Assembly: GCA_020849765.1 (NCBI GenBank)
Contig: JADLAY010000007.1
Location: forward strand, 62,001-126,000
Origin: Anaerolineae bacterium
Lineage (GTDB): Bacteria > Chloroflexota > Anaerolineae > Aggregatilineales > Phototrophicaceae
Direction of reading: 5' to 3'
Length of the DNA stretch: 64,000 bases
Shown in pieces: positions 60,812 to 64,000 of the stretch. The number at the start of each line of letters is the position of its first letter. Position 1 is the first letter of the stretch. The position numbers and the translations under genes are program-made. Below the pieces are notes generated by a model. It made no database searches, was not told where the DNA came from, and saw nothing but the letters and a program-made list of their open reading frames with translations.

Positions 60812-61303
60812 ATGCAGCTTGAACGCGAAATCATCAATAATATAGAAACACATTACGAGAGTTTTCCGGGATTGATGGCCATGCCCATGCACATTTCCTG
60901 GCTTGACGACGAACACACGATCATCCTTTGCTCAGGCGAAGGCCACTGGACGTGGGAGGACTTTGCCGAGGGCGTTCAACGTGCGGTCGCGCTGATGAAT
61001 ACCGTCAGCCATCGCGTCGATCTCATTTACGATCGCAAGCTCGGGAGCTATCCGCCGCGCGGGAGTGGGCTGCCTCACTACAAAGATGCGCTGCAGCGGA
61101 TGCCGGAAAACGCAGGCATGCACGTCTTTGTGGGTGCGATGCACACGGTCATTCAGGTGACCATGCGCCTGTTCTTTCGGCTGTACGGCCGCTTCATCGA
61201 TGATGAGATGGCCGGGCGCTTTGTCGTTGCCGACTCCGTAGAGAGCGCCAAAGCGCTGATCGACAAGGATCGGGCAGGCTCCCGAGCGTCCGTGGTGAGC
61301 TAG
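60812..61303 (+). CDS. Small protein of unknown function, paralogue of 57747-58157
   Basis: About 163 residues from ATG 60812, or ~140 from ATG 60881, which aligns with the paralogue start. Shared residues include WxDDEHTI, GHWTWEDF, RVDLIYDR, HYKDALQRMPENAGMHVFV and MRLFFRLYGR, then ADSVESAKALIDKDR against APTLDAARARI in the other protein. It has no TM segment. The extra N-terminal ~23 residues are unmatched. It is separated from the permease by a terminator hairpin. Confidence 0.72.
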   Translation: MQLEREIINNIETHYESFPGLMAMPMHISWLDDEHTIILCSGEGHWTWEDFAEGVQRAVALMNTVSHRVDLIYDRKLGSYPPRGSGLPHYKDALQRMPENAGMHVFVGAMHTVIQVTMRLFFRLYGRFIDDEMAGRFVVADSVESAKALIDKDRAGSRASVVS

Positions 61304-61414
61304 CGCTCGCGCCAAAGCAAACCGAATCAAAAACAGTGTCTCCTTCATTCCCGGTCGTCGCGGCGCGTGCTATCATCGTGCGTCTACACTGCAATTATCG
61401 CAAGAAGGATGATC

Positions 61415-62179
61415 ATGCCCGCTCCGATTGCCGTTCAGCTTTATTCGCTTCGTGAAGCCTTGCAGGCAGACCCCGAACCGGTGTTCCGTCGCCTGGCAAA
61501 GACCGGCTTTGTCGGCGTCGAAACCTATCGCGGCCTCGATGCCTCGATGACCGTGCGCATGTGCCGTGAGTACGGCCTGGAGATCTGCGGGGCACATCTG
61601 CCGCCGCCGGTCGGGGATTCGCGCCAGGAGATCATCGACCTGGTGGTGCAGCTCGGCATCAAGAAGCTGATTGTGCCCTACATGGCGCCGGAGAATTTCT
61701 CCAGCATCAGCAGCATCCGGCGCATGTGCGAAACGATCAACGAAGGTGCGCGCTTGATGCTGCAGCACGGCTTCGAGTTCGGCTATCACAATCACTGGTT
61801 TGAACCGGCGTTGATCCAGGGCGAGGGGCGCACCGGCCTCGACATCATGCGCGAAAATCTCGATCCGGCAATCTTCTTCGAGGTCGATACCTACTGGGTG
61901 CAGGTTGCCGGGCAGGACCCTGCCGCGCTCGTACGCGACCTGGGCCCGCGCGCGCCGATGCTGCACATCAAGGACGGCCCGGCGTCGTCGGTTGAGGCGT
62001 CGATGGTCGCGGCCGGGCAGGGCGCCGTCAATATCCCGGCCATCATCGAGGCCGCGCCGAACGCTGAATGGGTCATCGTCGAGCTGGATCGCTGCGCCAC
62101 GGACATGATGACCGCCGTCGTCGAAAGCTACCGCTATCTGGTCGCCAGCGGATTGGCGACGGGCCGCGTCACGGCCTAG
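61415..62179 (+). CDS. Sugar phosphate isomerase/epimerase (xylose isomerase-like TIM barrel)
   Basis: 254 residues. ATG 61415 (MPAPIAVQLYSLREAL) has GAAGG at correct distance. The TIM-barrel family signature: VQLYSLRE at strand 1, GVETYRGLDA, GAHLPPPVGD, EFGYHNHWFEP (metal His), FFEVDTYWVQVAG, MLHIKDGP and WVIVELDR, with the metal-binding Glu/Asp/His set. It resembles myo-inosose-2-dehydratase/IolE-type and D-tagatose epimerase proteins. Exact sugar unknown. Confidence 0.88.
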   Translation: MPAPIAVQLYSLREALQADPEPVFRRLAKTGFVGVETYRGLDASMTVRMCREYGLEICGAHLPPPVGDSRQEIIDLVVQLGIKKLIVPYMAPENFSSISSIRRMCETINEGARLMLQHGFEFGYHNHWFEPALIQGEGRTGLDIMRENLDPAIFFEVDTYWVQVAGQDPAALVRDLGPRAPMLHIKDGPASSVEASMVAAGQGAVNIPAIIEAAPNAEWVIVELDRCATDMMTAVVESYRYLVASGLATGRVTA

Positions 62180-62204
62180 AGGCTGACATTTTGCATCAAT
62201 AGAT

Positions 62205-62505
62205 CAAGGCTCAAGTATCGAACGATTGATCGCTAACGGGCGGCAAACCGCCTCACGTTGCCGAGGGGCTTACGCTCTTTAAGAAAAATAATCGGATACC
62301 GATCGTAGGGTTTGCCATCAGTAAACCCAATTAAGGTATGCCGTTTAATTACTTAATCTGCATAAGCCCTCGGCTAAAGGTTCGGGCGGGAGGCCCCAAT
62401 TCAATTCATTCAAAGGGGCTTGCCCGCCCGCTAGACGCCGCCTGAGCACCCATCGGTAAGGTGGACAGTCTCATTTAGATCCACCCGTTCTGAGCTTGAG
62501 CCTTG
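62205..62505. ncRNA. ~300-nt structured non-coding element, probable RNA of unknown class
   Basis: Non-coding in all frames. Outer arms CAAGGCTCAAG (62205-62215) and CTTGAGCCTTG (62495-62505) are perfect inverses; GAACG (62220-62224) pairs with CGTTC (62486-62490). Inside are nested helices: AACGGGCGG-caaa-CCGCC..CGTT (62235-62259), GCCGAGGGGCTTA (62260-62272) with TAAGCCCTCGGC (62363-62374), ATCGG-ata-CCGAT, GGGTTT/AAACCC (62308-62328), ATTAAG/CTTAAT (62330-62357), CGGGCGGG (62383) with CCCGCCCG (62430) extended by GGCCCC/GGGGC, and GTGGA/TCCAC (62461-62484). This is a multi-branched RNA-like plan. No RT, IscB, TnpB or self-evident family is adjacent. Strand unknown; it precedes the HEAT gene on the plus strand. 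Confidence 0.6.
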
Positions 62506-62566
62506 TTATGTATTGCGGCAGGCACTTTGCGATACTAGCATCAGATCACTTTGGGAAGGGTTGAAA

Positions 62567-63973
62567 ATGAAGCTCTTTTCTAGACTGCCTAACGTTCAGA
62601 AGCTCAAATCCAAAGGTGATGTTCCTGGACTCATTGATGCACTAGACTATCGAGAGAATGAGTCGATTCGTATCATGGCTGCACAAGCTTTAGGCGAATT
62701 TATGTCTTCTGATACAACAGTGCCGTTGCTGACAGCGATGGCGACTGATAACCCCGCTGTACGCGAGGCTTGTATAAGCGCGTTGGTTAGAACACACACC
62801 CGTAAAGCAAACGCACTAACCGAACGGCTTAATGATCCCACGCTGGGGGAACCGGCTGAAGAAATATTGGTCCTCCTTGAGAACTGGGCTATCCCAGACC
62901 TGCTTGATGCCCTATTCGACTCCAATAGACGTCAGGCAGCACAAAGAATACTGACCTCGCTAGGTGAGCGAATTGTTGAACCATCGCTAGATTCGACATC
63001 AGCGGAGTACTGGTACTACATCCGTAACCAAACGCTGAGCTCGCCGGGTAAGCGAATTAGTGAACTCGCTGTCAAGACGTTGAAGTCAACCAAGCCATCG
63101 AACAATGCGACGGATGAAGGAAGGCTGATCATCGCCCACATGGTGCTTAAGTTTAGCGATTTATCAGCCGCCTCGATGTTGCAGGAGTTAAAGCACGAAG
63201 ACTTCCGGTCAGCAATCGTGGAGGCAATCCACGTCTACCAATGGAAACCATCGAATGAAGCCGAACGACTGTTCCGTGCTTGCGCCCTTTTGGACTGGAA
63301 CGAGCTGCGCCAATTTGGGGAAGCTGGGTTTTCGGCATTGATGATAATGAGAGAGACAGAAGACGATATAACGAAATCTTCCATTGACGAGGCGCTTACC
63401 GCCATCGGACAGACTTATGATCAGGAGTTCATCCGGCTGTGGCTTACCCGATTCTCGAGCGGACCCTCTCCTGTATCGAAGGATGCAGAGATGATGTTAA
63501 AACGGATTGATCCGGAATGGCCTATGAACTTACAGATCGTAAAGGACCACCTTCCGTTAATCCATCAATGGCTGTTCGAGCCTGCATGGTGGTCAACCTA
63601 TGCTTTTCAAATTATTGGAAATGCCGTAGATATTACCGCTATCAAGCCGATATTTGAGTTGTTAACAACCAATCAGGCGAACCATAAGAAGCAGTGCGCA
63701 AGCAAGCTGCAGAAGTCTGACTTGCCCAACTGTGACAAAGAACTACTCGAAAAGGTTCTTGAGACTTTGATGCAGTTATTAACGAAGGGCGCATCAAGTA
63801 TTCCCGATGATGATCTCCAGATTCTCTCTAACCTGGATGACCTGGGTTATATCTATCCGGATGTGGATTATTACCATGACTTCCATGGATGGAAGATAGG
63901 AAGCCTTAGCTCCTCATCGGTGCGTAGGCTTGCACAAGCGGAACTGGAATTGCGTTCTTCTACACTGGGATAG
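62567..63973 (+). CDS. HEAT-repeat protein of unknown partner
   Basis: 468 residues from ATG 62567 (AAGGG upstream), MKLFSRLPNVQKLKSKGDVPGLIDAL. The N-terminal ~150 residues show HEAT/PBS-lyase-like repeats (IRIMAAQALGEFMSSDTTVPLLTAMATDNPAVREACISAL). The rest is helical with weaker repeats. No TM, signal or catalytic motif. Such proteins bind other proteins. AT-rich against the backbone. The 5' flank is the structured element ending at 62505. Confidence 0.75.
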   Translation: MKLFSRLPNVQKLKSKGDVPGLIDALDYRENESIRIMAAQALGEFMSSDTTVPLLTAMATDNPAVREACISALVRTHTRKANALTERLNDPTLGEPAEEILVLLENWAIPDLLDALFDSNRRQAAQRILTSLGERIVEPSLDSTSAEYWYYIRNQTLSSPGKRISELAVKTLKSTKPSNNATDEGRLIIAHMVLKFSDLSAASMLQELKHEDFRSAIVEAIHVYQWKPSNEAERLFRACALLDWNELRQFGEAGFSALMIMRETEDDITKSSIDEALTAIGQTYDQEFIRLWLTRFSSGPSPVSKDAEMMLKRIDPEWPMNLQIVKDHLPLIHQWLFEPAWWSTYAFQIIGNAVDITAIKPIFELLTTNQANHKKQCASKLQKSDLPNCDKELLEKVLETLMQLLTKGASSIPDDDLQILSNLDDLGYIYPDVDYYHDFHGWKIGSLSSSSVRRLAQAELELRSSTLG

Positions 63974-64000
63974 CCCGATGTGCGTAGCATTTGCAGACGA

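Follow-up and report, generated by a model that had tools for sequence, protein, structure and literature searches.

A stretch of about 300 nt with unusually extensive predicted pairing, located between two protein-coding genes of this Anaerolineae genome, raises the question of whether it specifies a structured RNA or represents a different kind of element. Within the window (the whole 64-kb stretch of DNA that was analysed), it starts 25 nt past an isomerase stop codon (62177-62179). Profile searches identified the neighbours as an AP_endonuc_2 (xylose-isomerase-like) gene and a HEAT-repeat gene, in agreement with the preliminary description, which placed the stretch between a sugar isomerase and a HEAT protein. 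A third neighbouring gene is methyltransferase-like, matching TIGR00027 with 45 bits, under the cut-off of 93.55 for that profile. Neither a reverse transcriptase nor TnpB/IscB was detected among these three profiled neighbours.

The terminal arms, 62205-62215 (CAAGGCTCAAG) and 62495-62505 (CTTGAGCCTTG), are exact 11-bp inverses with 279 nt between them, as had been described (about 280 nt). However, there are many other 11-bp inverted pairs no more than 400 bp apart in the 64-kb window, so that the arms alone are no evidence, and we rejected them as an argument for a special element. The predicted RNA fold of 62205-62505 reaches -135.2 kcal/mol, compared to -89.5 +/- 5.1 for 100 dinucleotide shuffles (z = -8.98; 0/100 as good), so the claim that the folding exceeds that of random DNA holds, and stacked helices and side hairpins appear in the places where a multi-helix layout had been reported. 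The longer segment 62180-62566 also folds well as RNA (z = -6.24 on the plus strand and -5.20 on the minus strand), as does 62190-62520 when folded as single-stranded DNA (z = -7.22). Good folding of either strand is what palindromic DNA should show, so the strong fold does not point to RNA. Searching the window against Rfam 15 yielded no match above the gathering score, consistent with the earlier remark that tmRNA, RNase P and SRP signatures are not matched; three matches from a permissive search over 551 bases (E = 1.2 to 9.3) were dismissed as chance level. BLAST searches for full-length homologues in the source genome, 61 genomes and 400 genomes of the phylum recovered the window only.

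The stretch can be resolved into three nested layers, with the following features (a strand is given where one applies):

62205..62215: layer 0, left arm of a 22-bp palindrome without mismatches, CAAGGCTCAAG (from inverted-pair comparison)
62216..62494: layer 1, structured stretch interrupting the layer 0 palindrome at its centre, with its own side hairpins and with layer 2 inside it (from folds made both with layer 2 and without it)
62260..62271: left arm of the palindrome that layer 2 interrupts, GCCGAGGGGCTT
62272..62363, minus strand (family orientation): layer 2, 92-bp member of a phylum-level repeat family (model match 62267-62368)
62272..62283, minus strand: layer 2 end, CTTAA-AGA-GCGT in the minus-strand reading
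62305..62328, plus strand: GTAG-tagged palindrome within layer 2, GTAGGGTTTGCCATCAGTAAACCC
62352..62363, minus strand: other end of layer 2, ATGC-AGA-TTAAG in the minus-strand reading
62364..62374: right arm of the palindrome that layer 2 interrupts, AAGCCCTCGGC (11 pairs, one bulged G)
62383..62430: side hairpin of layer 1, CGGGCGGGAGGCCCC...GGGGCTTGCCCGCCCG (RNA and DNA folds)
62460..62485: side hairpin of layer 1, GGTGGA...TCCACC (sequence and RNA fold)
62495..62505: layer 0, right half of the palindrome, CTTGAGCCTTG (from inverted-pair comparison)

The core, layer 2, occupies the exact midpoint of one palindrome; the larger layer that encloses it is in turn centred in the 22-bp palindrome. 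When layer 2 is deleted in silico, its neighbours read GCCGAGGGGCTT^AAGCCCTCGGC, with 11 pairs and one bulge, and the remainder folds as before; the joined sequence lacking exactly layer 2 is GCCGAGGGGCTTAAGCCCTCGGC. Deletion of layer 1 together with layer 2 leaves neighbours that read CAAGGCTCAAGCTTGAGCCTTG. On the minus strand, the layer 2 ends read ATGC-AGA-TTAAG ... CTTAA-AGA-GCGT, and both helices are fully paired. For layer 1, no relatives were found in the source genome, the 61 genomes or the 400 genomes of the phylum; a 19-base match in one of the 61 genomes (G016, E = 0.03) was taken as chance. From its architecture, layer 1 would be an older mobile element of another family. In one genome (G013), the isomerase gene is joined directly to the next conserved gene, and about 2.9 kb comprising the element and the HEAT and methyltransferase-like genes are absent; as genes are missing there too, this genome provides no base-precise empty site for the window. 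Separately, this segment of about 2.9 kb (window 62180-64000 plus L054 185-3088), which includes the AT-richer HEAT gene and is absent at the same place in G013, has the appearance of a strain-variable island.

Layer 2 could be assigned to a repeat family through its ends. BLAST against the 61 genomes (source genome included) gave several short matches at query positions of about 145-175, in the AT-rich TTTAATTACTTAATCTGCAT; the majority of the remaining ones at E <= 1 look accidental. In relatives, TTTAATTACTTAATCTGCAT terminates small intergenic elements with GTAGGGG-type hairpins, and in the window core, sequence of this type is present at both ends, inverted. Searched as a pattern, TTTAATTACTTAATCTGCAT matched 20 times in 13 of the 61 genomes, compared to a single match for the reversed control, although 7 of the 20 look coding or unclear. 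Across the phylum, 30 of 400 genomes (again including the source genome) matched at E <= 0.05, some at the same query positions and extending into the flanking GAGGGCTTATG.

A looser end pattern was run on 16 genomes. It returned 33, 28, 8, 15, 6 and 4 matches in G226, G382, G400, G057, G258 and G024, respectively, with none for the control in each case, and 3 matches in the source genome (control 0), none of which is the window locus. In nine further genomes, the pattern was unspecific (matches/control: G326 9/1, G019 7/2, G035 12/8, G029 4/4, G003 4/1, G013 2/1, G012 1/2 and G146 1/1; no matches in G047). The family is multi-copy by end pattern in G226, G382, G400 and G057 and has two copies in G041, whereas in the source genome only the window copy was found. 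A gapped pattern run over named genomes detected 17 stretches, 11 of these in one Roseiflexus record set, 4 in one 'Chloroflexi bacterium' and 1 each in a Lachnospiraceae and a Crenarchaeota record (L212, L213), the last two possibly by chance or through transfer.

The anatomy of the family is clearest in G226, a single contig from the same phylum and probably a Roseiflexus, where the elements are nested in one another. One end type recurs every ~68 bp on one side of these nests and the other type, inverted, every ~48 bp on the opposite side, around a central hairpin such as GCCGAGGGCTTCAGCCCCACGGC. A unit for alignment was obtained from 17 of the 21 G226 loci, and these 17 innermost units show a mean column identity of 85%. 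Each unit folds into a helix ATGG/CCAT, an internal loop that is mostly AGA/AGA, a helix TTGAG/CTCAA and an inner helix around ATCCG, followed by two hairpins, and the tip of the first hairpin is the site of nesting. Within G226, none of the base pairs is altered in both partners, which leaves other genomes as the source of any covariation. For 36 distinct end pairs, drawn from 46 hand-picked matches with the best strand taken for each and poorly aligned ones included, the partners were shuffled, a test that does not correct for the relatedness of the copies. Helix cells are paired in 84% of cases compared to 72% after shuffling (maximum 78%; 0/5000 shuffles), and the four variable pairs in 75% compared to 53% (0/5000 shuffles), whereas loop positions are no different from shuffles (507/5000). 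The compensatory changes in the end helices include G-C to C-G and to A-T. Covarying end helices fit a hairpin in single-stranded DNA as well as one in RNA. The search for homologues with covariation that the preliminary description suggested finds relatives with covarying end helices for the core; for the full 300-nt unit, no homologue was detected in the genomes searched.

A covariance model (R1; E-values are rough) built from the 17 units of G226 matched the 64-kb window at 62267-62368 on the minus strand (35.5 bits, E = 6.6e-6); its sole other match in the window was to the opposite (plus) strand at these positions (E = 0.27). This test is not fully independent because G226 was reached through similarity to the window; however, the original match between the two spanned one end only, whereas the model matches both ends. 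In the phylum, with up to 8 candidates scored per genome, the model detected at least 25 of 400 genomes at E <= 0.001, 19 of the 25 belonging to two families (f32, f68); 19 genomes have at least one full-length match and 6 have matches to inner hairpins only. Among 39 genomes (the source genome and 38 relatives), at least 2 were matched at E <= 0.05. In these scans, the source genome had no match, the window locus included, among the best 8 and then the best 90 of more than 3500 candidates; we read this miss as an effect of candidate preselection, yet it is a weakness. In the source genome, layer 2 is present as one diverged copy.

Several comparisons bear on the mobility of the family and on its targets. 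The two copies in G041, a member of the window's order, are identical at 167 of 172 positions inside (97%), whereas their 65-base flanks align at 34 of 65 only, and they are centred in different palindromes, GGCTT^TAGCC and GACTT^TAGTC, each with a 9-bp stem. One intergenic site can be compared between orthologues across the genus of G226: G382 carries an empty, terminator-like hairpin, CTCCCGCAGATTTGAAATCTGCGGGAG, and the G459 counterpart of this hairpin has elements in its tip, followed by a T run; at the same site, G226 has ~800 bp of repeats, G394 has repeats too, and G460 has a different short hairpin. Within G226, the palindrome GACCGAAATTCATTTCGGTC is empty at L132 and filled at its centre at L142, with no duplicated base. 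At L153, the tip of a REP-like hairpin houses a copy beside a Y1 gene; the same hairpin is found nearby in an empty state, and here too no bases are duplicated. Thus, target site duplication is absent at these two G226 sites, and the empty and filled states differ by the element alone.

Placement in palindromes was also assessed for 17 outermost boundaries, which were placed manually in 14 of the 21 G226 loci (L130-L149, L153); the 7 loci without settable outermost ends were left out. The flanks pair with their own partner with a mean score of 6.4, compared to 4.4 with other partners (8/20000 permutations) and 3.4 at random positions, although 3 of the 17 have a stem score of only 3. At least three of four flanking bases are complementary in 37 of 46 matches, a figure that comes without a control. 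In these sequence comparisons, the copies lie at palindrome centres, and they are likely mobile. The nested repeats of L132 (~240-840) also contain a second, ordinary-looking MITE with the ends AGCAGTTCTCA / TGAGAACTGCT. The two clusters at L132, ~3 kb apart, were considered as a possible autonomous copy and rejected, the longest frame between them not being transposase-like; we take it to be a Clp-type chaperone ATPase.

The GTAG-tagged palindrome inside layer 2 is a common feature of the family. The 20 pattern matches were split by eye into 13 intergenic members of the window's order (window included) and 7 others, judged coding or unclear. Within 140 bp of this right end, such a palindrome is enclosed by 12 of the 13, two of them weak (L033, L036), compared to 35 of 600 control segments, and by none of the 7. 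A GTAG-tagged palindrome is the hallmark of REPs, and GTAG repeats have already been reported from Chloroflexi, among others (PMC3733652). TnpA-REP of E. coli depends on both the GTAG tag and a bulge in the stem, with cleavage of single strands at CT, whereas other groups use perfect palindromes (PMC8266576). The parallel with the E. coli enzyme is loose, given that the mismatched loop lies in the outer ends here and not in the GTAG palindrome. Elsewhere in the window, at 1006-1375, GTAG-tagged palindromes (GTAGGGGCGCATCACGATGCGCCC, GTAGGGGCGGGATATATCCCGCCC) recur every ~132 bp in a REP-like array.

The source genome encodes three short Y1 genes (L050, L051 and L052) and has a fourth, weak match inside a frame of 1182 residues. 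Each of the three genes is flanked on both sides by direct multi-hairpin repeats of 126-163 bp that are 85-88% identical; the repeats of the three loci are three different sequences. Such direct repeats flank 5 of the 8 Y1 loci tested, out of 14 Y1 loci. The repeats that surround Y1 genes showed no sequence kinship with the window element (best E = 0.23). The three Y1 fragments of the source genome score 93.7-101.8 bits with the IS200 profile (cut-off 55) and 28.5-29.8 bits with the REP-transposase profile, below its cut-off of 80; together with one from G226, the four fragments, of 114-115 residues, are above the cut-off for IS200/IS605 and below that for REP transposase. A second Y1 gene of G226 (L155) lies within long arrays of another palindromic repeat.

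We consider it probable that the locus is a nested stack of small palindromic, non-autonomous mobile repeats of the REP type. Y1 (HUH) transposases acting in trans are the likely means of movement, although the enzyme is the part that we infer. Direct support exists for the family, its multi-copy status in other genomes, its covarying ends, the enclosed GTAG palindromes and the placement at palindrome centres. Y1 enzymes are proposed because of the GTAG palindromes and the Y1 genes with flanking repeats in the source genome. Under this scheme, the element would be non-autonomous and would depend on Y1 transposases of the IS200/TnpA-REP superfamily whose genes lie elsewhere in the genome. Recognition by these enzymes would rest on the folded ends and the GTAG palindrome; the element would be cut and joined as a folded single strand, with exposed hairpin loops serving as insertion targets. 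Stacks would grow from inside, since every copy arrives with a hairpin whose tip would be open to the next one. One tip insertion (layer 2), and probably two, would then have produced the 300-nt 'multi-helix RNA'. The preliminary description had raised a new ncRNA, a non-autonomous mobile element and a retron- or omega-like RNA; of these, the mobile element is favoured by the multi-copy relatives of the core, which lie at different sites and have palindrome halves as flanks.

Other explanations account for part of these observations. A functional structured ncRNA of ~300 nt, transcribed between the isomerase and HEAT genes, would explain the fold (z = -8.98) and the covarying helices among the relatives of the core, but we regard it as improbable: Rfam has no match, relatives exist for the 92-bp core only, with the 300-nt unit found nowhere else in the source genome, the 61 or the 400 genomes, and these relatives are numerous within a genome, lying at various sites and one inside another; moreover, both strands fold, and a crude test detected no sigma-70-like promoter in 61300-62800. 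The beginning of the stretch 25 nt past the stop codon, together with the G459 relative in a hairpin followed by a T run, would suit a terminator or mRNA-stabilising hairpin of the isomerase gene that is large only through accumulated repeats. This is compatible with the mobile-repeat reading but, on its own, rather unlikely, given that the outer palindrome is followed by TTATGTATT, with no T run, and that a terminator scan of 61300-62800 gave 2 sites, both on the minus strand, compared to 1.4 expected. A chance palindrome-rich stretch, which the commonness of 11-bp inverted pairs in the window might suggest, is scarcely credible in view of the shuffling result (z = -8.98, 0/100 as good) and the model match (E = 6.6e-6).

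There is somewhat more room, albeit still limited, for the possibility that the same nested mobile repeat is moved by an IS110-type recombinase or a DDE transposase, as inverted ends are usual for DDE elements. Furthermore, ISs of the IS110 and IS4 families insert into REPs, ISRm22 doing so at the palindrome axis (PMC1525189). However, ISRm22 gives 6-bp direct repeats (same source), and there are none at L132/L142 or L153; the enclosed GTAG palindromes point to Y1 (PMC8266576), with the qualification that the transposase search covered Y1 only.

Among known systems, REPs/BIMEs/REPINs, linked to RAYT (TnpA-REP), are closest in substance to the nested repeats, being intergenic, multi-copy, non-coding GTAG-tagged palindromes; here, however, the GTAG palindrome lies inside longer covarying ends with a mismatched loop of the AGA/AGA type, and the units sit in each other's tips. 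REPINs are REP doublets that form a hairpin, and the word 'nested' is absent from the REPIN paper (PMC3116915) and from the REP catalogues PMC3733652 and PMC12306157. REP-targeting ISs (ISRm22, IS621, ISPpu9) are closest in target, with insertion at the palindrome axis for ISRm22, but they are coding, and ISRm22 has 6-bp direct repeats (PMC1525189), whereas members of the family described here are short and do not code for protein. Mitochondrial double-hairpin or repetitive hairpin-forming elements are likewise small hairpin repeats thought to be mobile; unlike the present family, they are organellar, and the accessible part of PMC2800124 does not describe tip nesting. MITEs share the short, non-coding format and inverted ends, but target duplication is absent at the two G226 sites examined. 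IS200/IS605 elements and their non-autonomous derivatives resemble the family in the Y1 proteins of the source genome, which are above the IS200 cut-off, in folded ends and in the lack of target duplication at the sites examined. In contrast to IS200/IS605, whose ends are separate subterminal hairpins, the present element has no transposase gene, and its ends form one long hairpin. No description of non-coding units with covarying ends nested in hairpin tips emerged from the literature searched, which covered few subscription papers and included the accessible parts of PMC3733652, PMC1525189, PMC2800124, PMC8266576, PMC3116915, PMC6006769 and PMC12306157.

The chances are about even, in our judgement, that these repeats constitute a distinct class of bacterial mobile DNA, in which the target is a hairpin tip and the product is a new tip, giving rise to Russian-doll stacks in REPs, in terminator hairpins and in the elements themselves across one phylum, with the window as a case of several layers. 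REPs are abundant in many bacterial genomes, and their spread is poorly understood (PMC8266576); a family with filled and empty hairpin-tip sites offers a defined substrate, a defined target and a testable reaction. The locus also calls for caution in folding-based ncRNA discovery, as an elaborate RNA-like fold with covariation can arise in intergenic DNA without selection on RNA. Insertion into the tip of a terminator hairpin would leave the stem intact, which may provide these elements with a plausible low-harm mode of spread.
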